Positions 1 to 13,952 of a stretch of DNA of 13,952 bases are shown one piece after another. The DNA is from Myxococcales bacterium (GTDB lineage Bacteria > Myxococcota > Polyangia > HGW-17 > SLPX01). Below the pieces are notes generated by a model, which had not been told where the DNA came from, did not search any database, and worked only from the letters and a program-made list of their open reading frames with translations. Every line of letters starts with the position of its first letter. The first letter of the stretch is position 1. Location of the stretch: assembly GCA_007131745.1 (NCBI GenBank), contig SLPX01000173.1:1-13952 (forward strand), in the 5' to 3' direction. The position numbers and the translations under genes are program-made.

Positions 1-178
1 TTGAGGGATAGAAAATCGACAGAGAAAGGAACATGTAATAGTTCATGGAGTTGCTTGCACCGGTGCGATGCACTTCGTGGAAGAGCGTAGCATACAAGTG
101 AGAAACACCTTAGCCGTCGAAGGTTCTCACGATCCGGATGAATCTGAACAGAGACAAACTGAAATACCGGCGGAGTAT

Positions 179-183
179 AGGAG
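179..183 (+). promoter_or_regulatory. Shine-Dalgarno site of the first barrel gene
   Basis: AGGAG lies 7 nt before the ATG at 191. It decides the start: the reading frame is open back to an ATG at 68, but that ATG has no comparable site, and a secretory signal peptide begins exactly at 191. Confidence 0.7.
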
Positions 184-190
184 TAAACTG

Positions 191-841
191 ATGAAGTTAT
201 TTCCGATTATCACTGCTGCAGTCACCATATTCGCAATGAGTACTGTTGCACGAGCCGACTATCAAGCCCCTGCCGATCATGGGACTGAGACGGGTCAGCC
301 GGAGGGTGCAGCCGAGCAGGCCGAAGGCTTCGGGAAAATGTTCGTTTCCGGTACGGCAACCTTGTTGCTGAATCCAAGGGTGAAGTTAAAAGGAGGCGGC
401 GTGAGTGCTTCGACCAGCTACAGGTTCGGCGGTGGTTTCAACGCGATGTTTGAATACTATGTTTGGGACTACATTGCTGTGGGCGGCGGCATGCATCTGA
501 AAACCTGGAAACCAAAAGGGCGTGGAGCAAGAACCAGCTTGTCGTTTTCCATCGATCCCTCGGTGAGAGGGTTGTACGCGTTCGGACCCAATAAATCTTT
601 GGAGCCCTTTGTCCGTTTCGCGTTCGGTTACACTGCTTTCATTCCACACAAGGATTTGGAAGGAGTAGACACCGAGCATGGATGGAATATCAAGATCGGC
701 CCGGGCTTCAAGTATACCTTGCCCATGGGCCTCGCATTCATAGGGGAGTTTGGGTACTTTCATTCCAGTTACAAGAGTGACGGTATTACAGGCACTCCGA
801 GTTCTTTTTACATGGACTTCGGAGTGGGCTATCACTTCTAA
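191..841 (+). CDS. Outer-membrane beta-barrel protein, 216 aa
   Basis: A predicted exported outer-membrane protein of unknown specific role. Residues 1-22 form a signal peptide (short basic start, hydrophobic core, A-R-A before D23), so the mature protein begins near DYQAP. A short acidic and Gln/Gly-rich stretch follows. From about residue 40 the sequence alternates polar and aromatic or aliphatic residues in Gly-rich strands (FGKMFVSGTATLLL, YRFGGGFNAMFEYYVW, FIGEFGYFHSSY) and ends in ...GVGYHF. A terminal Phe is typical of proteins handled by the Bam barrel-assembly machinery. Size and pattern fit an 8-stranded barrel of the OmpA-like/OMP_b-brl type. The start at 191 is chosen over 68 because of the signal peptide and the AGGAG. 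A second barrel protein lies at the other end of the window. No ligand can be inferred. Confidence 0.8.
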   Translation: MKLFPIITAAVTIFAMSTVARADYQAPADHGTETGQPEGAAEQAEGFGKMFVSGTATLLLNPRVKLKGGGVSASTSYRFGGGFNAMFEYYVWDYIAVGGGMHLKTWKPKGRGARTSLSFSIDPSVRGLYAFGPNKSLEPFVRFAFGYTAFIPHKDLEGVDTEHGWNIKIGPGFKYTLPMGLAFIGEFGYFHSSYKSDGITGTPSSFYMDFGVGYHF

Positions 842-842
842 A

Positions 843-859
843 CCGCGCCTTAAACGCGG
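843..859. other. Short inverted repeat just after the barrel gene
   Basis: CCGCG and CGCGG flank a 7-nt loop immediately after the stop codon. No T-run follows, so this is at best a weak terminator or an RNA 3'-end stabiliser. Confidence 0.3.
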
Positions 860-921
860 ATCGAGATGACCTTTCATTTTGGGGGCTTGGTTCTCAGTGC
901 AGCAATAATTTGCGCTTTTTT

Positions 922-945
922 AGAGGTTCCCTTTCGGTAGCCTCT
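922..945. terminator. Stem-loop between convergent genes, possible terminator
   Basis: AGAGGTTCCC pairs with GGTAGCCTCT around a TTTC loop: nine of ten positions pair, counting one G-T wobble, with one mismatch. It sits between the barrel gene (+) and the response regulator (-), which point at each other. A T-run lies just before it on the plus strand and only a short TT follows, so intrinsic termination is uncertain in either direction. Confidence 0.35.
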
Positions 946-954
946 TTCATGATT

Positions 955-1620
955 TCAACACAAGGTGAGCAACCCGAACTTGAATCCCTTTACAACGGCT
1001 TCTACCCGGTTGTTGACCCCCATCTTTTTGTAAATGCTTTCCAGCAGAAGCTTGATGTTGCGTCTTCCCGTTTTCAACACGCTTCCCATTTCCGGGTTTG
1101 TGAGGCCTTTGGCAAGAAACTTCAATACCTGTAATTCTTTTTCGTCAAGACCGAACGGATCTTCGGGAGAATGTCCCTTGCCCGCGTCGAAAAAATTCCA
1201 GAAACGCCTGGCAAGTCTCGGTTCGATGACTGTTCCTCCGGCATGGACTTCCCTGATTGATTCGAGCAGGCGATCCGCTGCGACACCTTTGACCAGGTAG
1301 CCGGCTGCGCCGGATTTCATGGCCCTGAAAACACGATCTTCATCGTTGAACGAGGTCAAAATGAGGATCTCAGCCCCTCGGGGAGGCGCGGGTACATGTT
1401 CCAACAGTTCAAGGCCCTGCATGCCGGGGAGTTCGAGATCCAGCAACAAGACGTCAAAGTTCGCGCCGTTTTCCAGCGAGGTAAGGACGTCTTCAGCTGC
1501 CGGTGCCTGGCCGGCAAGTTCCATGTCCGGGGTGTCTTCTATGATTCTGGTAAGCAGTTTTCGTGTGCGCGCATCGTCTTCACAGCAATACACCCGGATT
1601 GTTTCACTTGAGTTCGACAT
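955..1620 (-). CDS. NarL/LuxR-family two-component response regulator, 221 aa
   Basis: A cytoplasmic DNA-binding regulator switched by phosphorylation. Residues about 8-122 are a receiver domain: acidic cluster E14-D15-D16, phosphoacceptor D61 in LLLDLELPG, the switch threonine T89 in ILILTSF, and the conserved K111 in YLVKG. Residues about 158-211 form a LuxR-type helix-turn-helix (LDEKELQVLKFLAKGLTNPEMG, then IYKKMGVNNRVEAV). The recognition helix is odd: the usual TVK-x-H is replaced by NIKLL. ATG at 1620 is taken as the start; a GTG directly before it (1623) would add one residue, and no strong Shine-Dalgarno site decides between them. No histidine kinase is in the window, so it is an orphan here. 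It is divergent from the acyltransferase fusion gene, which makes that gene a possible target, though this is only positional. Confidence 0.9.
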   Translation of the reverse strand: MSNSSETIRVYCCEDDARTRKLLTRIIEDTPDMELAGQAPAAEDVLTSLENGANFDVLLLDLELPGMQGLELLEHVPAPPRGAEILILTSFNDEDRVFRAMKSGAAGYLVKGVAADRLLESIREVHAGGTVIEPRLARRFWNFFDAGKGHSPEDPFGLDEKELQVLKFLAKGLTNPEMGSVLKTGRRNIKLLLESIYKKMGVNNRVEAVVKGFKFGLLTLC

Positions 1621-1763
1621 CACCGGTATTTAATGACATTTTGCTTCTCTGCTCAATCCAAAACTGCATAGCAACCCGTTCTCTTTATGGTTTCGATGAG
1701 TTGAAGATGACAGGGATTCCATACGGGTCGAGAAAATTTGCCGCGAAATATCATTGAAGATGC

Positions 1764-1780
1764 TTGACACGCTGCGTCAA
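1764..1780. promoter_or_regulatory. Inverted repeat over a -35-like box in the divergent promoter region
   Basis: TTGAC, 7 nt, GTCAA. The left arm is also a perfect -35 hexamer (TTGACA, 1764-1769). A matching -10 is weak (TACTCG at 1788, 18 nt on). It lies between the divergent response regulator and acyltransferase genes, where an operator would be expected. Short arms make chance occurrence possible. The rest of 1621-1853 shows nothing else clear. Confidence 0.3.
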
Positions 1781-1837
1781 AACATGGTACTCGACAGAGC
1801 AGTTAAAAAGCCGGAGTAGGTTTGATACGAGCACACG

Positions 1838-1843
1838 AGGAGG
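1838..1843 (+). promoter_or_regulatory. Shine-Dalgarno site of the acyltransferase-hydrolase gene
   Basis: A full AGGAGG lies 10 nt before the ATG at 1854. It argues against the upstream in-frame TTG at 1764, which overlaps a possible -35 box. A second in-frame ATG at 1896, preceded by AAAGGGA, remains possible. Confidence 0.6.
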
Positions 1844-1853
1844 TTTGAGAGAC

Positions 1854-3416
1854 ATGGATTCAACCAAGAATAATCATAACGTTGAAAGGGAAAAGATGGT
1901 CAACACGATGTTGGCGCCGATCGATTTTTCCCTTGGTTCGGCAAAGAACATCATAAAAAAAATAGGCGCTTATGAGCCCACCAAAAAAGTGCTTTATGAG
2001 ACCGTTAAAAAGGGGCTTCGTAAACAATTCGAGTTGGTCAATGATCTTGACGTGGTGGGAGAAGAGAATGTGCCCGAATTCGGAGGAGCTGTGTTGGCTT
2101 CGAATCATCAGAGTTGGCTGGATGTCCAGGTCCTGGTGGCGTCATGTCCCAGGAAGGTTCATTTCATGGCCAAGGCGATGTTCAAGGAATGGCCCATTTT
2201 GCGTCACCTGATTGAATTGTCCGAGTCCGTGTACGTGGATCGCAGAGGCGACACGGATGCGTTAAGTTACACCGTGGAAAAACTTCGTGAGGGTTGGCTG
2301 GTAGCCATTTATCCTGAAAGCACAATACCGGGAGAAGAAGACATTCCCAGAACCGCCGTGGAAAGGGAAACCGGATTGCTTAGAGGAAAGACAGGGGCTG
2401 TTCGCATGGCTCTCGAGGCGGGTGTGCCCATAATCCCGATCGGTGTATCCGGCACCGGCAAATCCCTGCCGCCTGAAGTGTATCCCCGGCTTGAAATACT
2501 TGAACTTCCAAAGCCCACTCCGATTACACTGCAATTCGGTGAACCCTGGCACCTGCCCGAGGATGTGGATGTTTCCGATAGAGATCGGGTACGTGAATTG
2601 ACTGATGAACTCATGAGGAAGATATCAGGGCTCGTAGATCATTCCCGTAATTACATTCCCATGGAAGTGCCTCTTCCCCAGTTTCCAACGTACGAAAAAC
2701 TGGGGGTGTTGGTGCTCCATGGTTTTACATCCTCGCTTAAAACGGTCGATGGGCTGATACCCTTTGTTGAAAAAGAGGGTATGCCGTGGAAGATGCCCAC
2801 TTTAAGGGGTCACGGTACGAAATACCAAGACATGAAAGGTGTCAAAGCGGAAGACTGGTATGAAGATGCCGAAAAAGCCCTGCTGGAACTTTGTGATCGT
2901 GATGACGTTGACAAGGTGGTGGTGGTGGGACTTTCAATGGGCGGATTGGTAGCGCTTGAGTTGGGAATGAATCATCCGGATAAAGTCGCAGGTTTGGCCA
3001 CTGTGGCCGCGGCGGTTCGATTCAAAGATCCGATGAGCGCTTTGACTCCTGTGATGGCTAAGATTTTTTCTTATTGGCCGAGTCCGGAGTCGTTTAACGA
3101 TCCGAGCAGGCGGGTTCTGTGTGAAAATTACAAGAAGTTTTCCACCGACGCTTTTCTTTCGTTGTATCGCTACGCCGCGCGAATAGAAAAAGACCTTCCC
3201 CGATTGACAGTGCCGATTAGAGTTTTGCAGTCCAAAGCCGACACGATAATCGATCCGATTTCCGCCAACCTTGTCTATACGAATGTCTCTTCAAAACACA
3301 GGGAAATTTCCTGGTTTATGAAAACAGGACACGAGATGATGCAGGACATGGAAGCGGAAGCGGTTTTTGAAGATCTCATCGGCTATATCAAGCGTTTCAG
3401 ATCCGACAAGTCCTGA
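1854..3416 (+). CDS. PlsC-like acyltransferase fused to Est30-like alpha/beta hydrolase, 520 aa
   Basis: Two enzyme domains of lipid metabolism lie in one chain. Residues about 40-250 are a PlsC/LPLAT acyltransferase, a family that moves acyl groups from acyl-CoA or acyl-ACP to lysophospholipid. The catalytic H-x4-D is NH85QSWLD90, the phosphate-binding block is YPEST (153-157, replacing the usual FPEGT), and block IV is VPIIPIG (from 191). Residues about 275-520 are an alpha/beta hydrolase close in style to the Est30 carboxylesterase/monoacylglycerol lipase group: HGFTSS oxyanion region, nucleophile S361 in GLSMGG, D463 in SKADTIID, and H493 in TGHEMM, so the triad looks complete. No signal peptide is seen; the protein is probably cytoplasmic and membrane-associated. 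An acyl-transfer plus deacylation role in phospholipid or glyceride remodelling is inferred. The true substrates cannot be read from the sequence. Confidence 0.88.
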   Translation: MDSTKNNHNVEREKMVNTMLAPIDFSLGSAKNIIKKIGAYEPTKKVLYETVKKGLRKQFELVNDLDVVGEENVPEFGGAVLASNHQSWLDVQVLVASCPRKVHFMAKAMFKEWPILRHLIELSESVYVDRRGDTDALSYTVEKLREGWLVAIYPESTIPGEEDIPRTAVERETGLLRGKTGAVRMALEAGVPIIPIGVSGTGKSLPPEVYPRLEILELPKPTPITLQFGEPWHLPEDVDVSDRDRVRELTDELMRKISGLVDHSRNYIPMEVPLPQFPTYEKLGVLVLHGFTSSLKTVDGLIPFVEKEGMPWKMPTLRGHGTKYQDMKGVKAEDWYEDAEKALLELCDRDDVDKVVVVGLSMGGLVALELGMNHPDKVAGLATVAAAVRFKDPMSALTPVMAKIFSYWPSPESFNDPSRRVLCENYKKFSTDAFLSLYRYAARIEKDLPRLTVPIRVLQSKADTIIDPISANLVYTNVSSKHREISWFMKTGHEMMQDMEAEAVFEDLIGYIKRFRSDKS

Positions 3417-3418
3417 GA

Positions 3419-3466
3419 GTTCAGCCGATAAGGGCGAAGGGGTTTTGCACCTCGCCTTATCTGAAC
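3419..3466 (+). terminator. Long stem-loop after the acyltransferase-hydrolase gene
   Basis: It begins 3 nt after the stop codon. GTTCAG (3419-3424) pairs with CTGAAC (3461-3466), and the inner arms GATAAGG/CGA/GG pair with CC/TCG/CCTTATC with small bulges, giving about 17 base pairs around a 9-nt loop. The nearest T-run (3493-3499) lies 27 nt further on, so it is not a textbook intrinsic terminator, but its position supports transcript ending or 3' protection. Confidence 0.5.
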
Positions 3467-3544
3467 CTTCTCACCTATAATCGCATCCCCCGTTTTTTTC
3501 TTCCCTGATTTTCCGGCTTCCGGACTGTTCTTCAAGCGGACAAT

Positions 3545-3573
3545 TTCAATCTTTTTAGTTACAGTTGTAAAAT
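3545..3573 (+). promoter_or_regulatory. Weak sigma70-like promoter candidate
   Basis: TTCAAT (3545-3550), 17 nt, TAAAAT (3568-3573). The -10 is good and the -35 is poor. It is the best candidate seen in the 265-nt gap (3417-3681) that also holds the stem-loop and a T-run at 3493-3499. Confidence 0.25.
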
Positions 3574-3668
3574 CAAGGGGTTAGTGCAGGGCACGAAATC
3601 TGCATGAAGCTCAGGGGAAGTGATGAATTGTCCGGTACGGAGAAAAAACTTTTCCACCGAAACATCGC

Positions 3669-3675
3669 AAGGAGG
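3669..3675 (+). promoter_or_regulatory. Strong Shine-Dalgarno site of the large lipoprotein gene
   Basis: AAGGAGG lies 6 nt before the ATG at 3682. It decides the start over the in-frame ATG at 3604, which has no such site and would place 26 extra polar residues before the lipoprotein signal. Confidence 0.75.
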
Positions 3676-3681
3676 TCCTTC

Positions 3682-6363
3682 ATGCATCTGGGAAAAACAA
3701 CTGTGTTCAAGCCCTGCAAAACCCGAGCGTCTCAACTGCAGAACGGGTATTTGTGGGGACTATGCTGGATATCAGCGGTTTTTTGTTGTTTCTCTTGCAG
3801 TCGGCAAAAAAAAGAACTCGAACACAGGAAAGATCCGGTTTCAGAGTCCGCCGATAAACGTGGCGTGGAGAAAAAAAGGGTATTGTTGTTGGTGATCGAA
3901 GGTTTGTCCGGAAAACACATGGAGGAAGTTTTGGCCTTTGAGTTGGCTGCGACTCCGCCGAGGCGTTTGAAGGTGGACTTGCAAGGAAGTTCCGAGGGAC
4001 GGAAGAGAGAAAACCGGAAGACCAGTGCCTATGATGAAAATCGTCATGAAGGTTTTGCACCTGTGAGCGAATCGGGGAGGTTTTCCACCCAAAACCTTGT
4101 GTTGGACATAAAGCATGATTATCGAACCATTCAGACTTCAGAAGATTTTCACGAGGAACCTGAAGGGAAAACCTCAGAAACGGCAGTGTTCTTGGTTGAG
4201 CAGCCTGCCGATTCGCCAACCGACCTTGAGCCGAATCCAAAGATGGAAATGTTGTCCCAAATTGCTCCGGCCCCGGATCCTGAACCTGATCCCGACCCAA
4301 ATCCGGAACCCGTTCCGGGTCCATCGGACAAACCTTTGCCGACGCGCGAGCCTGACCCGGATCCCAAGTTGGAAACATTGTCCGAAGTGGATCCATCCGA
4401 GCGGCCGGAGCCTGAATCAGAATCGGAGCCTGAATCAGAGCCGGAGCCTGAATCGGATCCCAAGTTGGAAACAATGTCCGAAGTGGATCCATTGGAGCGG
4501 CCTGAGCTTGAATCAGAGCCGAAGCCTGACCCGGATCCCAAGGACCGGCTGCAGCCGACTCGGCCGGTCGGTGAATCGCTACCTTTGTCAAGTAGGGCAA
4601 AGCGGAAAAGATCGACCGTGGAGGCTGTTGTTAAGTCGTCCATTAAAGGTGGAGAGACAATGCCTGGGATCGAACTAGTTTTCGACCGGTCCCAATGTTC
4701 AAGGGAATTGCGTGAGATCGAGAATGGATTTTCAGGGGAGAGCCGGTCGTGGTCGAATGTAACGATTCTTCAGCCACCTGAGCCCGGATCAGGATTTGTC
4801 ACGTTGCTGACCATGCTGACCGGTCATGATCCCGCGGCCCACGGTGTGGTTGCGCGGAGATTCATGCGGCGCGGGTCAGTCGTGCGAGGCTACAAAGAAC
4901 CTCTTTTGGCAACTTCGGTTATAAGGAAGGCAAGGGAAGAGGGTCTCAGGGTGATTACCTGGGGTGTTCCGAATGTGAGATGCGGTTTTGATCGGGGCGA
5001 GGATCCAACGCTGGGCGATCTCTTTTCGGTGTGCAAACCATCCGCTGGTAATATTGGGAAAGCCATGCCGGATTTGTCTCCTTGGCCCTCCGCTGGTCCG
5101 CCGCGTCGTCGCAGACGGCCGGATACGGCAAGATACATTTCATTACGTACACCTCGATCTTGCAAGATGGATGTTGATGGCAATGGATTCGATGAATCCC
5201 GGGAATCAACAGTCAGATTATGGTCTACAGGGATCCGGCTGGATTCGAATGATGGGGCGCTTGTATGGTTGGAATCTTCAAACAGCAATCCAACCGAACT
5301 GGCTGAGGGTCAATGGATGGAAGCTCGTTGGGTAGGCGAATGCGGCGGGTCTCCAAAGGCGAGAAGATCTTTGTGTGACGGAGCGGATTTTACGGTGAAG
5401 CTTTTGGACAGCAATCCGTCAACAGGTCGTTCACTTCTCTACGGTTCGGGGATGACCCGACTGCAGACGAGCGATTCGAGGAGGTGTTCGAGTTTGCGGG
5501 ACGCGGGGGTGGTATGGCCGGCTCCTCCGGATTTCGAATCTTATGAAAAGGGTCGGATGGATGCCGTCACAATGGCTGAAGCATTGCTGTTCGGAACAAT
5601 GGCTGTCGGCCGCTTTGTCGAATGGTTGAATAAAGAATCATGGGACCTGGCGGTAGTGAGGCTGGATACGCCGCGAAACTTGGCGAAGTCGTTGAATCCA
5701 CCGATTCAAAGGAGTGATCTGAAAAAAGAGGAAATTTTTCATCTTTACTATGTATGGCAACTTTCCATGGCTCGGTTTTTCAGCATTGTGCGGGACATCG
5801 CGAATATTCCGGATTCGGATAACACCACCGTAATCATCGTGGGAACCGGAGGATTGGTCTCAACGGAAATCGAGGTCGGATTGGGCGGTATCGTGCAGGA
5901 AACAGCCCCGGGTTCCAGGATCGTGGAAAACGGCAACACTGCTTTTGTTTACCTGGATGAATATTCAAGACGTTCAGGTGCACTCGATCTTTTGCGGCAC
6001 AGGATGGAAAGGCTCAGATGGAAAGGAAGATCAGTATTCCGAAAACCGGGCGGGGTCAGAAAATCGATCGATCTGCCCCGAACTTTGAAACGTCCCGAGG
6101 TCGGCGATTTGTTTCTCAGCGCGGCTTGCGGGTTCAGATTGAGCGGAAGAAGAGTGAAAGGTGATTTCAGACTGTCCGATAAAATGGCGGCGGAGTGTTA
6201 TGACGAAAATGATGAGAGAACTCTTGGCGGATTGATTGTCGCAAATAGCGGTGAAGAGTACAATATGCCTTCCAAGATGCAGGCTTCATGCGTGGCTTAT
6301 TGGCTGGAAAAACACCTGGGACTCAAGAGTGCGAACCCGGCCGGCCGGCCCGGGTGTATTTAG
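3682..6363 (+). CDS. Large predicted lipoprotein, degenerate alkaline phosphatase-superfamily fold, 893 aa
   Basis: Residues 21-39 form a hydrophobic segment ending in CFSC39, a lipobox-like site, so the protein is probably lipid-anchored outside the inner membrane. VLLLVIEGLSG (66-76) resembles the first strand of nucleotide pyrophosphatase/sulfatase-type enzymes, but the metal-binding Asp is E73. A charged region and a Pro/Glu/Asp-rich repeat (about 178-295) interrupt the fold. It resumes with SGFVTLLTMLTGHDPAAHGV (370-389), matching the family's nucleophile motif; the nucleophile position falls on G371. Near 654-665 (WDLAVVRLD) one Asp may survive, but the later D-H-G metal site reads T-G-G (722-724). 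I infer a non-catalytic binding or structural role. An EF-hand-like loop occurs at 497-508, and RRRRRP precedes it. The 3' end overlaps prmC by 41 nt, tail to tail. The family assignment is by motif only and is moderately secure. Confidence 0.7.
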   Translation: MHLGKTTVFKPCKTRASQLQNGYLWGLCWISAVFCCFSCSRQKKELEHRKDPVSESADKRGVEKKRVLLLVIEGLSGKHMEEVLAFELAATPPRRLKVDLQGSSEGRKRENRKTSAYDENRHEGFAPVSESGRFSTQNLVLDIKHDYRTIQTSEDFHEEPEGKTSETAVFLVEQPADSPTDLEPNPKMEMLSQIAPAPDPEPDPDPNPEPVPGPSDKPLPTREPDPDPKLETLSEVDPSERPEPESESEPESEPEPESDPKLETMSEVDPLERPELESEPKPDPDPKDRLQPTRPVGESLPLSSRAKRKRSTVEAVVKSSIKGGETMPGIELVFDRSQCSRELREIENGFSGESRSWSNVTILQPPEPGSGFVTLLTMLTGHDPAAHGVVARRFMRRGSVVRGYKEPLLATSVIRKAREEGLRVITWGVPNVRCGFDRGEDPTLGDLFSVCKPSAGNIGKAMPDLSPWPSAGPPRRRRRPDTARYISLRTPRSCKMDVDGNGFDESRESTVRLWSTGIRLDSNDGALVWLESSNSNPTELAEGQWMEARWVGECGGSPKARRSLCDGADFTVKLLDSNPSTGRSLLYGSGMTRLQTSDSRRCSSLRDAGVVWPAPPDFESYEKGRMDAVTMAEALLFGTMAVGRFVEWLNKESWDLAVVRLDTPRNLAKSLNPPIQRSDLKKEEIFHLYYVWQLSMARFFSIVRDIANIPDSDNTTVIIVGTGGLVSTEIEVGLGGIVQETAPGSRIVENGNTAFVYLDEYSRRSGALDLLRHRMERLRWKGRSVFRKPGGVRKSIDLPRTLKRPEVGDLFLSAACGFRLSGRRVKGDFRLSDKMAAECYDENDERTLGGLIVANSGEEYNMPSKMQASCVAYWLEKHLGLKSANPAGRPGCI
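4204..4560 (+). repeat. In-frame Pro/Glu/Asp-rich linker with ~96-nt repeats
   Basis: This lies within the large lipoprotein gene. A unit coding for DPKLETLSEVDPSERPEPES recurs at a spacing of 96 nt (4351-4420 and 4447-4516, about seven differences in 70 nt by eye). A more diverged relative starts near 4234 (NPKMEMLSQ) and a partial one near 4525 (PDPDPK). Between units are short PEPESE/DPDPNPEP runs. The acidic, proline-rich composition implies an extended, disordered spacer. It produces long artefactual reading frames in other frames. Confidence 0.85.
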
Positions 6364-7276
6364 GCTGTTCTTGGGCCGGAATTTTTACCCTTCCATATAC
6401 GGCCCGGTCCAGCCCGGCGAGATCCTGCCGGATTTCTACTTGTTCATATTTGCCTGTTTCTTCCATGAGAGTTTTGACTTTTACAGCCTGGTCCATAGCT
6501 GTTTCCATGATAAGCCGGCCTTCCGGCCTGATGATCTCCGGAGCACCGGCTACAAGCGGCCTTATGATCGCCAGTCCGTCATCACCCCCGGCCAGGGCGA
6601 TGTAGGGTTCATGCTTGATCACGTCGGGCTCGGCTTGGGGGCCGTTTTTCAACGCAATGTAAGGAGGATTCGAAACAACAAGATCGAACGTGTATTTTCC
6701 CCTGAGCGGTTCGATAAGTTCGCCCCAAACAAACTCGATCCGGGAACCGTGGCGGCGTGCATTTGCTTCGGCTGTTGCCAATGCTTTTGATGATATGTCG
6801 GTTGCCACTATTCGCGCGTCTTTTCGTTCTTTTGCTAATGCTATTGCAATGCACCCCGAACCGGTGCCGATATCTGCAATGCTTGGATTTGCCAAGTTCT
6901 TCAACAGTTCAAGAGCTATTTCCACTAGTAATTCGGTTTCAGGCCTTGGAATCAATACATCCGGATTGACTTCAAAATCGAGCGACCAAAATTCACGATG
7001 GCCCACGAGGTAGGCCGTGGGTTGACCGGAGATCCGCTTTTTTACCAGCTCTCGATACCTTTTTCGCTCGTCTTCATCGAGCGGTTTTTGGTAATCCATG
7101 TAAATGGTCACCCTGTCGCATTTCAAGACCGAAGCCAACAAGATCTCTGCTTCCAAGCGGGGTGATTTCATGGATGATTCCTTGAAACGGTCCGTTGTCC
7201 ATACAAGAACATCCCCGACGGTCCATGTTTTTTTGTTCTCAGGATCCACAATGTTGGGGGGTCGCTTAGGAGTCAT
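6323..7276 (-). CDS. prmC: Release factor glutamine-N5 methyltransferase PrmC (HemK), 317 aa
   Basis: It methylates the glutamine of the GGQ motif in peptide chain release factors using S-adenosylmethionine. Residues about 18-95 are the family's helical N-terminal domain, ending in AYLVGHREFWSLDF (88-101). VLIPRPETE (107-115) leads into the Rossmann methyltransferase domain, with SAM-binding DIGTGSG (135-141), acidic D160, and the substrate-glutamine motif NPPY (203-206). The end, GLDRAVYGRV plus a basic tail, is as usual for the family, apart from a slightly long C-terminus that overlaps the convergent lipoprotein gene by 41 nt. The start at 7276 has no strong Shine-Dalgarno site, but the N-terminus aligns with the usual length. 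It is last in the minus-strand cluster, 68 nt after amrS. The usual partner prfA is not here. Confidence 0.93.
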   Translation of the reverse strand: MTPKRPPNIVDPENKKTWTVGDVLVWTTDRFKESSMKSPRLEAEILLASVLKCDRVTIYMDYQKPLDEDERKRYRELVKKRISGQPTAYLVGHREFWSLDFEVNPDVLIPRPETELLVEIALELLKNLANPSIADIGTGSGCIAIALAKERKDARIVATDISSKALATAEANARRHGSRIEFVWGELIEPLRGKYTFDLVVSNPPYIALKNGPQAEPDVIKHEPYIALAGGDDGLAIIRPLVAGAPEIIRPEGRLIMETAMDQAVKVKTLMEETGKYEQVEIRQDLAGLDRAVYGRVKIPAQEQPKYTRAGRPGSHS

Positions 7277-7344
7277 GGAGTCAACAATCTTTCAACTGAA
7301 TACATATTCACGATTGCCCGGTGGCGGAATTGTTTTCCAGCCGC

Positions 7345-8385
7345 TCAAGGCAAGCCCCTACCGGCGATTGATTCTCCGCAGTGTGAGCACTTGCCGTTCT
7401 TGATGTACAAATCACGAATGCTGAATCCATACCTGCTTATTATGACTTTCCCGCAGGAAGGGCAAAAGGTGGATTCGTTTTCATCGCCCCATAGATTGCC
7501 CGTATATACGTATCGGATGCCCGCTGCCTTTCCGATTTCGTAAGCTTTTTTGAGTGCCGAGGCCGGTGTCGGCCGTACATCGGGAAGCTTGTACGATGGG
7601 TGAAAACGGCTTACGTGCCAGGGTATGTCGCGACTTGTTTCAGCGAGAAACCTTGCTATGTCGCGGAGGGCGGAGTCGTTGTCGTTATACCCCGGGATGA
7701 CAAGGGTTGTGGCTTCTATCCAAATGGATCGTGAGTGCATCTTGCGGATGTTGTCTAGAACCGGTTGTGCGTGCGCGCCGGTAAGCTTTTTCATTACTGT
7801 TTCGTCCGCGCTTTTGATGTCCACGTTTGCAGCGTGAAGGTGTTCACCCATGAAGTCCAGGGCTTCCGGGGTCATGTAGCCGTTTGTTACGAAAACGTTT
7901 TTCAACCCCGCGTTATTCGCAGCGATTGCGGTGTCCCTTGCATATTCAAGAAAAATGGTTGGTTCGGTATAGGTATACGAAATGGTTGCGCATCTTTGAG
8001 ATTGCGCCAGATCCGCGATTTCTTCAGGAGGAAAATAGTTTCCGGGAAGATCCATTCCGGGGTTGTTAATAGGCCATTGGGAAATGGCATGGTTCTGGCA
8101 GTTCAGGCATCTTAAATTGCAGCCTGCAGTTGCAATGGAGAAGCTCAATGTTCCGGGATGGAAATGAAAGAGGGGTTTTTTTTCAATGGGGTCCTTGTTA
8201 GCGGAGATCAATTTCCCGTAGTTGAGTGAATACAGTACTCCCGACCTGTTTTCCCGGACACCGCAAAGCCCCCTTCGACCTTCGTGCACCAGGCACCGGT
8301 GATGGCAAAGAAAACACCGTGTCCTGTCCTTCCGCTCTTTGCTCCACAATTCCGCTTTTCTCGGTTGGCATTCGTTTGAGTTCAT
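7345..8385 (-). CDS. amrS: AmmeMemoRadiSam-system radical SAM enzyme, 346 aa
   Basis: A radical S-adenosylmethionine enzyme of the COG1180 (PflA-like) group, in the subfamily that co-occurs with Memo-like and AMMECR1 proteins. The [4Fe-4S] cluster motif is C89-x3-C93-x2-C96 (CNLRCLNCQNHAISQ). An N-terminal Cys set, C24-x2-C27-x3-C31-x9-C41, and the string DPIEKKPLFHFHPG (65-78) are subfamily hallmarks. A C-terminal zinc-ribbon-like pair follows, C308-x2-C311 and C333-x2-C336. The substrate of this family was not known to me; protein or small-molecule modification has been proposed. Neither Memo nor AMMECR1 genes are in the window. It lies 71 nt after the Cys-rich lipoprotein and 68 nt before prmC on the same strand. 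The start codon lacks a clear Shine-Dalgarno site. The cluster implies oxygen sensitivity. Confidence 0.92.
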   Translation of the reverse strand: MNSNECQPRKAELWSKERKDRTRCFLCHHRCLVHEGRRGLCGVRENRSGVLYSLNYGKLISANKDPIEKKPLFHFHPGTLSFSIATAGCNLRCLNCQNHAISQWPINNPGMDLPGNYFPPEEIADLAQSQRCATISYTYTEPTIFLEYARDTAIAANNAGLKNVFVTNGYMTPEALDFMGEHLHAANVDIKSADETVMKKLTGAHAQPVLDNIRKMHSRSIWIEATTLVIPGYNDNDSALRDIARFLAETSRDIPWHVSRFHPSYKLPDVRPTPASALKKAYEIGKAAGIRYVYTGNLWGDENESTFCPSCGKVIISRYGFSIRDLYIKNGKCSHCGESIAGRGLP

Positions 8386-8456
8386 GACAAAACTCTACAC
8401 AAGAAGCCGCGGGTTTCAAGCGAATCCTGGAACAAGGTAAGGTTTGAACAGGATCC

Positions 8457-9362
8457 TCATTTCTCACACAATGGTTTAACCTTTTCGATTAAATCATCGA
8501 TTTTCGGGTCTTTGACTTCGTACTTTTTCACGGCATTGTAAATCGTCTTCACTTGATAAGGGCAAAACCGTTTCATTTGCGGAATCTCACGCTCGATAAT
8601 CGCCGCACCCAGGTCGATGTAACAAGCCCTGATGACCTTTTCCTTCATCTTTTCCGCAAACTCTGTTCCCGCTGCTTCTATACGTTTGAGGCTGAATTCG
8701 CAATTGAATGGGACTGTTTTTGCCTCTTTTAGCGCTTCTCCCGCCTTTTCTACAGCTTCATGCGAATGACCTGCGATATCAAGGTTTTGGCAAATACCTT
8801 CAGCTTCTTTTACTTTTTCTCCTCCGATTTCCTTGGCAGCGGCTTTGAGTTCTGAACAAACACGGAACCGCGCTTCATCGACACCACCATCATCGAGCAT
8901 TTTGGCAGCCTGATTCTTGATTTGATCGTAGGACGAAGCGGCGATTTCGTTGCACTTGGTTTTAAGAGCGTCTGTGAGGATTTCTTTGCTGTACCTGCAT
9001 ATCATGAGAGCCTGTCCATATTTCTCTTCTTTGAGCGCATCATCTATACGCTGTTCGGTGTCTGCTATGCGGGCTTTCCGCACAGCTTCGTCCAGGCATT
9101 TTTTGAATTTAACGCAGTTCGAATGCTTTGAGCACGCTATCTGCTCTTTCACCCGGGGTCTGTTTTTGCGCTTGTTGCACATCTCCAGGAACCGTTCTTC
9201 TTCAATCGAAAAATCTTCTTCGCATTTGTTCAACCTCCTGTATAGAAGCTTGCAGCTTGGAGTGCCTGAACAACCTGTGCCGAGCAACAGAAAAGTAATT
9301 GCCGAGATCGCCATACACATTTTGATGGCATGTTGTCGTAATCTGCTCCAAATCGTAATCAT
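8457..9362 (-). CDS. Cys-rich helical lipoprotein, function unknown, 301 aa
   Basis: I do not recognise a family. Residues 1-30 form a lipoprotein signal (basic start, hydrophobic MAISAITFLLL, lipobox GTGC31), so the mature protein should be lipid-anchored in the cell envelope. The rest is charged and strongly helical by composition (many Lys, Glu, Ala; stretches such as KAGEALKEAKT), with no further membrane segment. It holds about 15 cysteines from C31 on, often in helices (SC, KCEEDF, MCNKRK, ACSKHSNC, KCLDEA, later single Cys every 20-40 residues), which suggests several disulfides. A repeat of helical hairpins pinned by disulfides is possible. GGAGGG (9368-9373, minus strand) supports the start. 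It sits between the aconitase-X gene (46 nt upstream) and amrS; what it does with them is unclear. Confidence 0.82.
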   Translation of the reverse strand: MITIWSRLRQHAIKMCMAISAITFLLLGTGCSGTPSCKLLYRRLNKCEEDFSIEEERFLEMCNKRKNRPRVKEQIACSKHSNCVKFKKCLDEAVRKARIADTEQRIDDALKEEKYGQALMICRYSKEILTDALKTKCNEIAASSYDQIKNQAAKMLDDGGVDEARFRVCSELKAAAKEIGGEKVKEAEGICQNLDIAGHSHEAVEKAGEALKEAKTVPFNCEFSLKRIEAAGTEFAEKMKEKVIRACYIDLGAAIIEREIPQMKRFCPYQVKTIYNAVKKYEVKDPKIDDLIEKVKPLCEK

Positions 9363-9367
9363 TGTTT

Positions 9368-9373
9368 CCCTCC
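9368..9373 (-). promoter_or_regulatory. Shine-Dalgarno site of the Cys-rich lipoprotein gene
   Basis: GGAGGG on the minus strand, 5 nt before the ATG at 9362. It is in the 46-nt gap after the aconitase-X stop codon, which supports independent translation within one transcript. Confidence 0.6.
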
Positions 9374-9408
9374 AAGATCGGTCCGGAATGAGCCCGGCTG
9401 TTTTGCGC

Positions 9409-10659
9409 TCAATCGGGGTTACATGCTTTTTCGATGCAAATATGAGCCGGCGCTGTAAGGACCTTCAAACCGTTGTGTCCCCTGCCGTAATAGCAGCCTT
9501 TCGCCGAATCAGTCATTACGCTTTTAAAACGTCCTTTCAAGGGAGCCACCGCAAAGCACGTATCGCACAGTACATTTACACCACTCGTTTCAAGCCGAGA
9601 GAGAAAGCCACCACTCCGGGCTGATTCGTAGACAGCGCGGGACGTGCAAATCCAAAAAGGAATCTTGACCCGCCGGCCTTCCAGAAGGTGTGCCGCTTCC
9701 GCAATCTCGTCAAGTGTAGCATGGGGACACCCCAAACATACGAAATCCGGCCGTTTTACCGAGTCACTCAGTTTCTTGGATGTTTCCAAATACTCGGCTT
9801 CGCCGAACGTAAGCTTTTTTCGGGGAATCCGAACGGCTTCCGCCTCGGGTGTGATGTTTTCAGCATGGAACATCGGCGATCCACCGAATGTCGGCAATGC
9901 TGCGCTCAATGCTTTCAAACATCCGATGTCCCTGTTGTGCTCGCCCTTGACCGCTCGAACATACGGAAGGCCGCCCGGCGCATGGACGCCGATGAAGGCG
10001 CCGAGCAGCCCCCAATCATATGGTGTCTTCATATCCCGTGATACATCAACCCGAATGGTGGGTTGCCGGTGTTCATCCAGGTGGAGACCCCAGCGGGGAG
10101 TTCGCCCCGTGATCGCCGCGGCGAGCGCTCCGGGGCCGCCCTCTCGGTTGGTCCGGGCCCCAAGGGCTGAATTGGCGAAAGTCACGGCCGAGGATTCAGC
10201 CCATGCGATGGATTCGCGAAAACCGGGCAAATTGCCGGCCAGGTACGGCGTGCATGTGCAGGCGGGGATAAGGCCCATGGATACATATGCATCTACAACT
10301 GCGAGCTGCTTTTCCGCGAAAGATTCCGGAATCGATTGCTCGCGCCAATGTCTGAGATCCATGCCGGCCGGATTGATCGTGGCCGAGTAGACGGATGTGT
10401 GCCCGTGTTCGGCCCATTCCTGGAGAAACTCCAGACCCGCGTCGCCGAGGTTGTGGTAGGAAACTCCCGAAACCTGGACGGATCTGACTTCCACGAAATC
10501 CACCGCTCCGTGTATCTTAGCCAATCCGAGTTGCAACTTCATTGCTTTCGCTGCAGTCGGACCTTTTTCACCCTGCAGAATACTCTTTTCTTGCGAAGTG
10601 AGTTTGACATTAGGGTTGTTTGCACTGCCCATAAAAGTGGTCCTGTTGTTTGGGCACAT
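9409..10659 (-). CDS. Aconitase X large subunit, probable phosphomevalonate dehydratase, 416 aa
   Basis: This is the catalytic subunit of the AcnX family, Fe-S dehydratases that act on mevalonate 5-phosphate in archaea or on cis-3-hydroxyproline in some bacteria. Family features run in order: KLTSQEKSILQGEKG (19-33), C134-T-C136-T-P-Y, FANSALGARTNREGG (161-175), GC311PH, and CDTC368F; Cys in the last three Cys-bearing motifs are the expected cluster ligands. Length fits a large subunit alone, without the ~130-residue swivel domain. The gene follows the UbiD-family gene by 24 nt, and that pairing favours the mevalonate role: 5-phosphomevalonate to trans-anhydromevalonate 5-phosphate. The start is uncertain: ATG 10632 has an AGGA 8 nt upstream and begins just before the conserved region, while 10659 has only GGA. 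Cytoplasmic, probably oxygen sensitive. Confidence 0.88.
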   Translation of the reverse strand: MCPNNRTTFMGSANNPNVKLTSQEKSILQGEKGPTAAKAMKLQLGLAKIHGAVDFVEVRSVQVSGVSYHNLGDAGLEFLQEWAEHGHTSVYSATINPAGMDLRHWREQSIPESFAEKQLAVVDAYVSMGLIPACTCTPYLAGNLPGFRESIAWAESSAVTFANSALGARTNREGGPGALAAAITGRTPRWGLHLDEHRQPTIRVDVSRDMKTPYDWGLLGAFIGVHAPGGLPYVRAVKGEHNRDIGCLKALSAALPTFGGSPMFHAENITPEAEAVRIPRKKLTFGEAEYLETSKKLSDSVKRPDFVCLGCPHATLDEIAEAAHLLEGRRVKIPFWICTSRAVYESARSGGFLSRLETSGVNVLCDTCFAVAPLKGRFKSVMTDSAKGCYYGRGHNGLKVLTAPAHICIEKACNPD

Positions 10660-10683
10660 CCATTTCCATAGCGGCCCAGGTGT

Positions 10684-12054
10684 TCAGTTTGTGGAACCGG
10701 GCTTTTGGGATCCCTTGGGCACAAAAAGCTCGGCCCTCACAAACTCCGTATCTCTGCCACGGGGCTTTGTAGCGTCTATTATCCATTTGCTCGTGGTTTC
10801 GTCCCGCAAATTTCGGCTGGGGTCCAATGTGGAACCCGACGCGCTCTTTATGATTGTAATGTCGCGATGGGGTTGAACCCGGGTGGATTCAGCCCATTCA
10901 ACATCAGCGGACGAGTGAATGTCTATGTCGTCATCCACGATTGTAACCTTTTTGAGAGATGCGTGCGCGCCCAGAGCGGCCAACCCGATATTGACACCCT
11001 GTCCTGGAGCGGGTGCGTTTACACTGATTACTGCGTGGAGCCACGAACAACCACCCTCTGTCAGGCGAACCTCTCGAACTCCCGGATTTAACGAGCGGGC
11101 GGCCTGGAGAATGGAAGGCTCACGGGGGAGACCCATGAGGATTTTGTGCTCAGGACCCCCGGGAAGTATCGAATGATAAAGCGGACGCTGTCTCATCCAC
11201 AAGGTTTCCACTTCCAAAAGGGGTTGTTTTCTTACCGTGTCGTATGTTCCGGTGAGATCCACGAACGGACCCTCGTCTGCGAGGTCACCGGTGAAGCGGC
11301 CGGTAAAAACCACATGGCTGTGAGCTGGAACGAACAGTCCTGGAGACACCTCACATACTTCCAGTGTCCCCCCCATGAGAGCAGCGGCCACCGCGAGTTC
11401 GTTCATGTCCGGAGCCCCGGATATCGCGGCCGCCAGAAGCACCGCTGGGTGTACACCGCAAAAACCGGCGATTTTAGTATTGTTCCCGGTTTCTTGAAGT
11501 ATACGGTGAAGATGTCGCTTGACCACCCGAACGGCAAAGCGGTTTTTTTCAAGGTGCATCATGCGATGAAATGAAAGATTGAGACCATCTCGGGGTGAGC
11601 GTCCGGCGACAACAAAAGCCGTGCAATAAGCTCCTCCGTCCCCAGGGTAAAAACGTCCCACCGGAAGAACTTCCTGTATATCCGGGTTGTCTACGCGGTT
11701 TTCCGAAAAACCGGCGTGCTTTGCATCGACCTGTACCAATTCGCCTGGATTTCTTTGAGCGTTTTCCATGGCCCAAGGTATTTCCGAAGTTTCCACTCCG
11801 AGCGAGAGAGCCACACGCTTTCTTGTCGAAACAAGACCCGACACCACCATGCCTGGAAAACCCTTCGCTTTTACCAGGCGCAAAGCATTTGCCGGTGCTT
11901 TTGCCAATTCAGTGGTCAATTCAAGCTCAGGGTCGGTATTCGAGTCTAATCTTTCCACACCTCCATCCACACCCCCAACCACCCCCTCCAACCCCTCTAC
12001 TGCAGCTATGAAAGATTCAAGTTCGTTTGACGATGCTTTTTCGTTAACAGACAT
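10684..12054 (-). CDS. UbiD-family decarboxylase, probable anhydromevalonate-phosphate decarboxylase, 456 aa
   Basis: A UbiD-family (de)carboxylase, expected to use prenylated FMN. Signature parts, numbered from ATG 12054: LNLSFHR164MM with the catalytic-type Arg; GVHPAVLLAAAI (200-211); VPAHSHVV; E261GPFVD266LTGTY, whose acidic pair matches the Glu/Glu spacing of fungal Fdc1 with Asp in the second place; and VDDDIDI (373-379) with DVEWA just after. Next to aconitase X this suggests decarboxylation of trans-anhydromevalonate 5-phosphate to isopentenyl phosphate, as in the archaeal modified mevalonate pathway; other UbiD substrates cannot be excluded. Residues about 20-33 hold a Gly/Val-rich insert. 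The start is unclear: a TTG at 12075 would add seven residues, and neither start has a convincing Shine-Dalgarno site. No ubiX is in the window. Confidence 0.88.
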   Translation of the reverse strand: MSVNEKASSNELESFIAAVEGLEGVVGGVDGGVERLDSNTDPELELTTELAKAPANALRLVKAKGFPGMVVSGLVSTRKRVALSLGVETSEIPWAMENAQRNPGELVQVDAKHAGFSENRVDNPDIQEVLPVGRFYPGDGGAYCTAFVVAGRSPRDGLNLSFHRMMHLEKNRFAVRVVKRHLHRILQETGNNTKIAGFCGVHPAVLLAAAISGAPDMNELAVAAALMGGTLEVCEVSPGLFVPAHSHVVFTGRFTGDLADEGPFVDLTGTYDTVRKQPLLEVETLWMRQRPLYHSILPGGPEHKILMGLPREPSILQAARSLNPGVREVRLTEGGCSWLHAVISVNAPAPGQGVNIGLAALGAHASLKKVTIVDDDIDIHSSADVEWAESTRVQPHRDITIIKSASGSTLDPSRNLRDETTSKWIIDATKPRGRDTEFVRAELFVPKGSQKPGSTN

Positions 12055-12135
12055 AAAACTATGGCTTTCTGACAAAATGGTTTTTTCTCGCTCATCTCCT
12101 TGTTGCGATCTTGCAACTCATTACCGAGCCGTCAA

Positions 12136-12163
12136 ACAATACTAAATAAGACCTCGGTGACAA
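12136..12163 (-). promoter_or_regulatory. Sigma70-like promoter candidate for the UbiD/AcnX cluster
   Basis: On the minus strand TTGTCA, 16 nt, TATTGT. The -35 matches consensus at five of six positions and the -10 at four of six. It would start transcription roughly 60-80 nt before the first gene, with the GTTGC/GCAAC inverted repeat in the leader. Confidence 0.3.
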
Positions 12164-12203
12164 GACTCAAGTGACCGAACCTGAGACAACAACTGGAACA
12201 CCA

Positions 12204-12232
12204 TTGATCTCTTGCGCCGATGAATTTATAAA
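12204..12232 (+). promoter_or_regulatory. Sigma70-like promoter candidate for the GAF gene
   Basis: TTGATC (12204-12209), 17 nt, TATAAA (12227-12232): four of six and five of six consensus positions at the ideal spacing. It would give a leader of about 140 nt before the ATG at 12378. Confidence 0.4.
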
Positions 12233-12365
12233 CAGCCGAATCGGAATAGAATGCTTTGTGGATTTTTTGGAGAATTATTTAGAGCCTTTGCATCCCGGAC
12301 TCTTTTTTTGAGAGGGTTTGGATCCGTTGGCTGTAGGTTGTGTCACGAATGATATGTGATGATAC

Positions 12366-12371
12366 GGGAGG
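12366..12371 (+). promoter_or_regulatory. Shine-Dalgarno site of the GAF gene
   Basis: GGGAGG lies 6 nt before the ATG at 12378 and fixes that start. Confidence 0.65.
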
Positions 12372-12377
12372 TTATTC

Positions 12378-12932
12378 ATGGGTGATTTAGCTGTCTTTGA
12401 AGCTTCAAAACATCTTTTGAGTAATGGATTTGGAACGAAGTCGGTTTGCGAAGCACTGAGAATTGTGGGTGAAGGCCTGGGAGTTGACCGGGTATATATT
12501 TTCGAAGACAGCATCCACGAAGGGAAGAGGGTAGCCAGCCAGCGGTTTGAATGGAGCAAGAGTGACATCGAGCCGCAGATTGACAATCCTGAACTGCAAA
12601 ATGTTCCTTACTCGGAAGTCATTCCTCATTGGGGAATAGCCTTTGATCGCGGTGATGTGGTAAGCGGGCTTGTCAGAACCTTTCCTTCCCCAACCAAAGA
12701 AGTGCTGGAAGCGCAGTCAATCATTTCTTTGCTGGTGTGCCCGATCTACATCAATAAAGCTTGTTGGGGATTTGTCGGCTTTGACGACTGCTCCACCGAG
12801 CGCATTTGGCCGCAGGAGCTGGTGGCTGCACTGCAAATGCTCGCCAACAGTCTCGCTGCTTCGCTTAGGCATAACAAGACAAAAGAAACCCTTGAAAAGT
12901 CACGTCTTCTGTTGAGAGGATTGTCGGAGTGA
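12378..12932 (+). CDS. Standalone GAF-domain protein, 184 aa
   Basis: The protein is almost entirely one GAF domain (about residues 10-160), a fold that binds small ligands or mediates dimerisation in signalling proteins. Visible parts are the N-terminal helix with ALRIVGEGLGVDRVYIFE, the central strand region ending in ISLLVCPIYINKACWGFVGFDDC, and the final helix ELVAALQMLANSLAASLRH. A short charged helix (KTKETLEKSRLLL) follows, of the kind that normally leads into a histidine kinase, PAS or GGDEF module, but the frame stops at SE and nothing downstream to 13132 codes for such a module. It may be a complete single-domain sensor or a remnant of a larger kinase. It has its own promoter candidate and Shine-Dalgarno site. 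The bound ligand is unknown, and a link with the orphan response regulator 11 kb away is only conjecture. Confidence 0.8.
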   Translation: MGDLAVFEASKHLLSNGFGTKSVCEALRIVGEGLGVDRVYIFEDSIHEGKRVASQRFEWSKSDIEPQIDNPELQNVPYSEVIPHWGIAFDRGDVVSGLVRTFPSPTKEVLEAQSIISLLVCPIYINKACWGFVGFDDCSTERIWPQELVAALQMLANSLAASLRHNKTKETLEKSRLLLRGLSE

Positions 12933-13036
12933 GTTGGATATAAAACCAATTTCGAGCTTTGTTTCCAGGTGTCGGGTCTCCGCATCGCACATAGGGCGGA
13001 AGATACTCATCCATGGGCTTCCTAACCAGACCGTCC

Positions 13037-13063
13037 GGATAGGCGTTGCAAGCTTGCCTATCC
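13037..13063. terminator. Perfect 8-bp stem-loop between convergent genes
   Basis: GGATAGGC and GCCTATCC are exact inverted repeats around an 11-nt loop that itself contains GCAAGCTTGC. It sits in the 200-nt gap between the GAF gene and the convergent barrel gene. Neither strand has a proper T-run right after the stem, so it may be a bidirectional terminator of unusual form or another RNA/DNA structure. Confidence 0.4.
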
Positions 13064-13132
13064 AATAAAAACGTGAATATGAGGTCCTGGAAGTTCCGGC
13101 ACAGTTATTTGATATGTCTTCAAATGAGGGTT

Positions 13133-13952
13133 TTAAAAGGGAAGGAAATACATGAACGACCCGCCTATCCACCAGTGTATTCCGACATTATCGCGTTGTT
13201 CTGATTCAACGTCGGAGCAAGTCTTGCTGTATCCTGTAGATTTCGAGCAGACTTTTGTGTGCCATGGCTTGTAAAGACGAAAAATCAAGCCCGCGGCTAT
13301 ATTGTCGGTGATGAAATAATCCGCGCCGAATCCCCAACCCAATGAAAAAGCGTGCATCCAGTATTTGGAGGTAATCGTTTCACCCATAACTGTGCCGCTG
13401 CCGTCAGCGCCGTCCCGTTCGTAACCCAACACCAGGCTCATCCAGATATCCAGTTTCGGCAGTGATTTCTGTAAAAAATCCAGTGGCAGGATGCCTCTTG
13501 CTTCCGGCCCGATGATCATTGACCAAGAGGTCAATCTGTCTAAGCCACCTTTATCCTTGGGATGTTGAAACAAGAAAGCCATGTGCAAACCTGCCGCGGC
13601 AAAGGGAAAAAACCTGAAGAGTCCAGAGATGTTTAAGCCTACCATCGGCTTTACATCTCTGCACCACCTGTCGGTGCAGCCGGTTGCTCCGAAACCCATG
13701 CCCATCATCAACCCCATTTCACGCGCAAATCCCGTTTTTTGTTCATCGGGCGCATGGCCGTGGGGTTGAGCATAGGATGGATCCGCGGGCGGGGGAGCAG
13801 GAGGAGGAGAAGTTTCGGGTTCGGTATGTCCCGAGTCGTATGAAGAATCAGTAGTCGGATCTCCGACTTCTGCCGGAGGATCAGGGTCATCCGCAGGATG
13901 TTCGTGGGACACAGCTACTCGCATTGAGATGGTTTCGGCGGGATGCGCAAAA
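13133..13952 (-). CDS. Outer-membrane beta-barrel protein, N-terminus cut by window edge
   Basis: The reading frame stays open through the last base of the window (FAHPAETIS before the first internal Met at 13924), and no Shine-Dalgarno site precedes that Met, so the true start and signal peptide probably lie outside. The visible part begins with about 60 residues rich in Pro, Asp, Thr and His (ADDPDPPAE, SPPPAPPPADP), a flexible leader of a mature exported protein. From about GFAREMGLMMGMGFGATG the sequence turns into Gly- and aromatic-rich alternating strands (WMHAFSLGWGFGADYFITDN, VGIHWWIGGSFMYFLPF) ending in Phe, as in outer-membrane barrels. Two close Cys pairs (CTDRWC; CSKSTGYSKTC) may form loop disulfides. 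It resembles the 191-841 protein in general build, but no family or ligand can be named. Confidence 0.72.
   Translation of the reverse strand, partial: FAHPAETISMRVAVSHEHPADDPDPPAEVGDPTTDSSYDSGHTEPETSPPPAPPPADPSYAQPHGHAPDEQKTGFAREMGLMMGMGFGATGCTDRWCRDVKPMVGLNISGLFRFFPFAAAGLHMAFLFQHPKDKGGLDRLTSWSMIIGPEARGILPLDFLQKSLPKLDIWMSLVLGYERDGADGSGTVMGETITSKYWMHAFSLGWGFGADYFITDNIAAGLIFRLYKPWHTKVCSKSTGYSKTCSDVESEQRDNVGIHWWIGGSFMYFLPF

Follow-up and report, generated by a model that had tools for sequence, protein, structure and literature searches.

A putative archaeal-type gene pair for phosphomevalonate dehydratase and anhydromevalonate phosphate decarboxylase on a bacterial contig

We analysed 13,952 nucleotides of contig sequence from a Myxococcales bacterium (positions 1-13,952 of SLPX01000173.1, assembly GCA_007131745.1; hereafter the window), a stretch that carries a gene for a UbiD-family decarboxylase of the prenylated-FMN type next to one for the large subunit of an aconitase X (AcnX). 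With a probability of about 0.8, we read the two as an archaeal module of phosphomevalonate dehydratase (PMDh) and anhydromevalonate phosphate decarboxylase (AMPD) that was acquired by a Gram-negative bacterial lineage and would lead from mevalonate 5-phosphate to isopentenyl phosphate; named relatives of this lineage are labelled Deltaproteobacteria, Polyangiaceae or Pseudomonadota. The UbiD gene lies at 10684-12054 on the minus strand and encodes 456 amino acids from an ATG at 12054, with an in-frame TTG as an alternative start (10684-12075). The AcnX gene follows at 9409-10659 on the same strand, with 416 amino acids from its ATG or, alternatively, 407 from an inner ATG at 10632. Neither frame is interrupted or truncated, and 24 nt separate the UbiD stop from the AcnX start. 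An earlier reading of the sequence alone had described two intact genes at this distance on one strand, and open reading frame (ORF) calling and Pfam coverage confirm that description.

Each of three Pfam domains scored above its cut-off in the UbiD protein (PF01977, 157.4 bits; UbiD_C, 112.6 bits; UbiD_N, 28.1 bits). Its AlphaFold model has a mean predicted local distance difference test score (pLDDT) of 90.7, and the best structural match is HmfF (6h6v, template modelling (TM) score 0.90, 32% identity). The relatives used for UbiD and for AcnX were the 120 listed matches of each. In a quick tree of 125 UbiD rows the window's protein falls within an 86-row clade with a Shimodaira-Hasegawa-like approximate likelihood ratio (SH-aLRT) support of 100, and the six organism-labelled rows of this clade are bacterial metagenome-assembled genomes (MAGs): four Deltaproteobacteria, one Pseudomonadota and one Polyangiaceae. 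Eight of the other 34 matches carry organism labels, all of them archaeal. A careful tree under a mixture model (53 rows, including 30 of the 86) recovered the bacterial clade with support of 100/100 and nested it within the archaeal AMPDs, on branches supported at 95/89, 99/97, 93/85 and 100/98; the five outgroup rows, HmfF, AnInD and three plasmid UbiDs, fell outside the AMPDs at 100/99. Six rows (P0196, P0198, P0203, P0206, P0216 and P0226), three of which are also in the careful tree, branch as sister to the bacterial AMPDs in the quick tree; they may represent the donor or a further occurrence in bacteria.

Ten positions distinguish the AMPD type (V265, D266, T270, D272, R275, Q277, M307, W338, L339 and S366, in the numbering of the 456-residue protein): they are 93-100% conserved in the 86 bacterial and 34 archaeal rows and absent from five of five outgroup rows. 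R164, E261 and D266, which we take to be the catalytic Arg and Glu/Asp residues of UbiD enzymes, are also present in the window's protein and are invariant across a 26-row UbiD alignment. Judged by tree and residues, the window's UbiD is of the AMPD type. An HmfF-type or other UbiD identity was dropped, as both lines of evidence were against it.

AcnX matches PF04412 at 447.5 bits (cut-off 31.5) over profile positions 2-400 of 400, domains 1-3 of the large subunit are present at full length, and the AlphaFold model has a mean pLDDT of 91.1. Its only NCBIfam match, to the hydroxyproline dehydratase family NF051439, reached 283 bits, far below the cut-off of 700. By sequence, the closest solved protein is T. 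kodakarensis AcnX (7cnr, 296 bits), with the Agrobacterium hydroxyproline AcnX at 207 bits, and a structure search likewise returned 7cnr first by E-value (40% identity, query-normalised TM-score 0.87). According to the T. kodakarensis study (Watanabe 2021, PMC8184944), the mevalonate 5-phosphate site of the large subunit comprises G48, V49, S50, N53, N79, E129, S130, S131, K361 and Y365. Eight of these contact the substrate through their side chain or backbone, with Y365 acting via water and S131 via E129. All ten equivalents in the window (G65, V66, S67, N70, N96, E155, S156, S157, K387 and Y391) are identical to those of T. kodakarensis. In the A. pernix enzyme, mutagenesis established which three cysteines hold the [4Fe-4S] cluster (sites A, 1 and 2; PMC10040528), and C136, C311 and C368 of the window match these ligands; the sites were matched to T. 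kodakarensis by motif, with the A. pernix sequence outside the alignment. There is no Cys within ten residues after C368 and hence none at site C. Two residues on from C368 is Ala370, in a column where the hydroxyproline rows have Pro and are poorly aligned.

The ten substrate-site residues and the three cluster cysteines are identical in all 36 rows of the clade to which the window's AcnX belongs in a quick tree, and each of the ten is conserved in 83 or 84 of the 84 archaeal-group rows. Two plasmid-borne hydroxyproline-type AcnX differ at five of these 13 positions, namely V49, S50, N53, S131 and the site-1 cysteine C283 (T. kodakarensis numbering). At the neighbouring position A47 the window has Ser, as do 23 of the 36 clade rows and all seven rows from archaeal loci L001-L007. 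The AcnX of these loci, mostly of Poseidoniales type, has Thr in place of N53 and Asn in place of S131 and so deviates from the substrate site usually seen. Another observation concerns the Cupriavidus necator megaplasmid p1, on which an unannotated AcnX large subunit (locus L009, 4001-5227) is 38% identical to that of the window; it is without two PMDh landmarks, having Ser at V49 and Val at N53.

The 36 bacterial rows, the window's included, form one clade in the quick AcnX tree (SH-aLRT 95). The window's AcnX groups with linked partners of the bacterial UbiD clade, outside the well-supported archaeal group, and in both the quick tree and a careful one it stands apart from the two hydroxyproline dehydratases tried, carrying the mevalonate-phosphate residues instead. 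Residues and tree thus identify it as a PMDh-type enzyme, and we dropped a hydroxyproline dehydratase identity, against which both speak. One relative, P0001, shows two differences in 407 from the window, and its contig is as long as that of the window's own UbiD match; since the two contigs may be identical or sisters, P0001 was not used as independent support.

The two genes also appear to travel together. Among the 120 × 120 listed matches, 16 AcnX/UbiD pairs, the window's own included, come from contigs of identical base count, a measure that stands in for a shared contig without proving one. Both partners lie in the bacterial clades in 15 pairs and neither does in one, with no mixed pair; a control with jittered contig sizes gave a mean of 0.65 coincidences and a maximum of 4 in 1000 runs. 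Four linked partners (contigs of 6881, 5242, 14047 and 8779 bases) fall, in the quick tree of each protein, within the subclade that holds the window. By the measure of equal-size contigs, AcnX and AMPD-type UbiD recur as a linked pair in bacterial relatives. We surveyed 60 archaeal genomes, all from the phylum to which G001, the source of Poseidoniales locus L002, belongs, and found AMPD and the AcnX large subunit at most 5 kb apart on one contig in seven; AMPD always came first and on the same strand as AcnX, an order that the window shares. An AcnX search of genome contigs returned at least seven loci, with archaeal titles, and three scans of viral contigs returned no relatives of the pair. 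AcnX-like matches occurred in 160 plasmid records and UbiD-like matches in 375, each below 60% identity; 30 and 40 rows, respectively, were listed, and three loci of each were examined as outgroups or comparisons.

PMDh also has a small subunit, and in some relatives it is part of the same chain as the large one. PF01989 is present in six of the 120 listed AcnX matches (P0024, P0034, P0049, P0054, P0057 and P0060, with P0034 and P0049 near copies), where the small domain is C-terminal after a linker. Together with the unfused P0059, these six form one seven-row bacterial subclade (SH-aLRT 99). Their small domains read GKGSTVGS, which we equate with Ser62-Thr63-Val64 in the small subunit from T. 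kodakarensis, an assignment made without alignment to that sequence. All seven archaeal loci L001-L007 encode large-small fusions in the same order (frame lengths of 592-616 amino acids); archaea thus have the fusion too, and we dropped any claim of novelty for a large-to-small AcnX fusion as such. Separate small subunits are found as well: P0248 belongs to a bacterial MAG labelled Deltaproteobacteria, and P0251 has a contig size equal to that of a bacterial-clade UbiD.

In the proposed pathway, AcnX would be the large catalytic [4Fe-4S] subunit of PMDh, partnered with a small swivelling subunit encoded elsewhere, and the enzyme would dehydrate (R)-mevalonate 5-phosphate to trans-anhydromevalonate 5-phosphate. 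UbiD with prenylated FMN, the corresponding UbiX being encoded elsewhere, would then decarboxylate this intermediate to isopentenyl phosphate, from which an isopentenyl phosphate kinase, likewise encoded elsewhere, would form isopentenyl diphosphate. No UbiX-like Pfam match occurred among the ten window ORFs scanned. The sequence-only reading had proposed either an archaeal-type isoprenoid route or a transferred two-gene module. An archaeal-type pair in a bacterium is well supported by trees and residues, because UbiD stands apart from the five non-AMPD UbiDs tried, HmfF-type and others, and AcnX apart from the hydroxyproline type; the substrate, activity, partners, complete route and direction of transfer are what we infer from sequence. 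The odds seem about even for a wider proposal, that a diversified Gram-negative, Deltaproteobacteria-labelled lineage relies on the archaeal anhydromevalonate route for isoprenoids such as quinones and the undecaprenyl carrier, following an ancient transfer of linked AMPD and PMDh genes, and that part of the lineage uses a fused large-small PMDh.

Several observations weigh against the acquisition of a working archaeal module. A six-frame search of the window with a profile built from small subunits of relatives did not find the PMDh small subunit (DUF126), the best score being 3.5 bits (E 1.6), whereas in archaeal locus L015 a small subunit, recognised by eye, comes after the large one. Among the best 120 of 6461 small-subunit matches, none lies on a contig of 15465 bases, the size given for the window's own matches. 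The small subunit of the window's organism would have to be encoded elsewhere, or the enzyme would be non-functional. In the structure search the hydroxyproline AcnX chains come close behind 7cnr by E-value and score slightly higher in query-normalised TM-score (0.88-0.89 against 0.87), and with scores so close the AcnX fold by itself is undecided on subtype. Of the 37 Protein Data Bank (PDB) matches obtained with an archaeal row named AMPD, none carries that label, and HmfF comes first there too, which leaves no structure from which to name the substrate residues of AMPD. The careful AcnX tree (48 rows) splits the bacterial rows, requiring two changes, and unites them in one clade in 13% of 200 bootstraps; a single bacterial clade was not rejected (p = 0.157 in the approximately unbiased test). 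Because of this split, and because the root of that tree sits on long branches, the direction of transfer is read from the UbiD tree. Finally, organism labels are attached to one of the 36 AcnX rows and six of the 86 UbiD rows of the bacterial clades, and all are MAG labels.

Three other explanations were weighed. The pair could be a real acquisition that is non-essential or incomplete, a remnant or side route in an organism that makes its isoprenoids via 1-deoxy-D-xylulose 5-phosphate or the classical mevalonate pathway, as the missing small subunit in the window might suggest. We regard this as unlikely: neither gene is damaged and each keeps a complete active site, the UbiDs of the bacterial clade are numerous and diverged, the pair recurs on equal-size contigs, and the small subunit is available to relatives, either fused, as in the six listed AcnX, or separate, as in P0251, which contig size pairs with a bacterial-clade UbiD. 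The two families might instead have been recruited to dehydrate and decarboxylate a different (phospho)hydroxy acid. Substrates differ among UbiD enzymes and the nearest solved relative here is HmfF, and PMC8184944 lists AcnX types IIc-f without known function. Retention of all ten PMDh substrate-site residues, the position of UbiD inside the archaeal AMPDs with their residues, and the continued linkage of the two genes make such a recruitment improbable.

Least credible is a chimeric contig, in which an archaeal fragment was misjoined to bacterial DNA. Such an error would account for protein families of archaeal origin in a window that is a single contig, but it is very hard to reconcile with a UbiD clade whose six labelled rows are all bacterial MAGs, or with an AcnX that groups with the linked partners of that clade and not within the archaeal group. 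The GC content is 0.536 for UbiD and 0.555 for AcnX, the highest of the 11 genes, against 0.454-0.526 for the neighbours. In codon usage, the deviation ratio is 2.18 for UbiD, the second most deviant of the 11 genes, and 1.43 for AcnX, both within the range of 0.92-2.25. Composition and codon usage thus appear to offer no evidence of a foreign patch or a misjoined archaeal fragment. An acquired archaeal PMDh-AMPD module remains our preferred reading.

The surroundings of the pair are bacterial, as the sequence-only reading had already suggested. Downstream on the minus strand, after a 46 nt gap, is a lipoprotein-like gene (8457-9362) with a lipobox recognised by eye and no Pfam match at E ≤ 1. 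It is followed after 71 nt by a gene for an AmmeMemoRadiSam-type radical SAM enzyme (7345-8385; TIGR04337, 329 bits against a cut-off of 220) and after a further 68 nt by one for PrmC, the release factor glutamine methyltransferase and a bacterial marker (6323-7276; TIGR03534, 290 bits against a cut-off of 199). The archaeal HemK-related family TIGR00537 scores 73.6 bits on PrmC, below its cut-off of 87, and the PrmC DNA gave no match in E. coli genomes. Given these short same-strand gaps, the UbiD-AcnX pair may head a longer transcript. Pfam and NCBIfam matches also point to a LuxR-type response regulator in the window, and an outer-membrane barrel match falls slightly below its Pfam cut-off (24.1 vs. 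28.7 bits). Rfam and tRNA scans of the window returned no matches. Between 6000 and 12700 we counted seven promoter-like sites (4.9 in shuffles) and 15 terminator-like sites (9.0 in shuffles), which were not used as evidence.

Three further ORFs of the window, on the plus strand, are of note. Divergent from the UbiD gene is a GAF-domain protein of 184 amino acids (12378-12932; PF01590), perhaps the beginning of a signalling protein of greater length. An ORF at 1764-3416 combines a glycerolipid-type acyltransferase (PF01553) and a serine aminopeptidase S33/alpha-beta hydrolase (PF12146) in one protein. A 919-residue ORF at 3604-6363 has a Pro/Asp/Glu repeat stretch, with 1.9 copies of a 96-base repeat at 4348-4529, and a weak match to type I phosphodiesterase (PF01663, E 0.0089) below cut-off.

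If our reading is right, a large bacterial clade holds both signature enzymes as a linked pair, which would mean a wider entry of the archaeal route into bacteria, with a bearing on the history of isoprenoid pathways and on the lipid divide. Bacterial PMDh/AMPD pairs, single-chain PMDhs among them, would also be usable for pathway engineering. Our literature search, covering mostly titles and the starts of abstracts and few subscription journals, turned up, among the papers listed, none that describes the pair from Deltaproteobacteria or Myxococcota.

How does the pair compare with known systems? Archaeal PMDh (AcnX type IIb, as in T. kodakarensis, 7cnr/7cns, and A. pernix) resembles the window's AcnX in large-subunit fold, the ten residues and the three cysteines, whereas the window's gene lies on a bacterial contig, has Ser at A47 and has no small subunit nearby. 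It further differs from T. kodakarensis AcnX in a nine-residue insert, which is also present in hydroxyproline AcnX. The hydroxyproline type shares superfamily and fold with the window's protein but differs at V49, S50, N53, S131 and C283 in the two rows compared, and its neighbours on an S. meliloti plasmid are hydroxyproline genes. With archaeal AMPD the window's UbiD has the wider clade and motifs such as EGPFVD, W-L-H and T(S/A)KW in common; it belongs to a separate bacterial clade and is 44-45% identical to four archaeal rows of the 26-row alignment. HmfF (6h6v/6h6x), a furan-dicarboxylate UbiD, is the nearest solved fold, yet it lies outside the AMPDs in the tree and is without the ten AMPD-type residues.

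One paper calls the archaeal mevalonate route unique to archaea (PMC10040528). Some Chloroflexota encode an archaeal-type mevalonate pathway, according to a paper that cites Kanno 2024 on Ca. Promineifilum breve (PMC13001223). That case and the window are alike in placing an archaeal-type pathway in a bacterium; they differ in lineage, by MAG labels, and here two genes are at hand, compared with the Chloroflexota pathway by description only. The two specific enzymes of Ca. Promineifilum breve were reportedly assayed in the work of Kanno. The kind of finding is thus already known from Chloroflexota, to which the window and its relatives add what is, going by MAG labels, a second and broad occurrence in bacteria, along with a linked pair and fused dehydratases, and the archaeal isoprenoid route seems to have spread into bacteria beyond the single phylum that we found cited.

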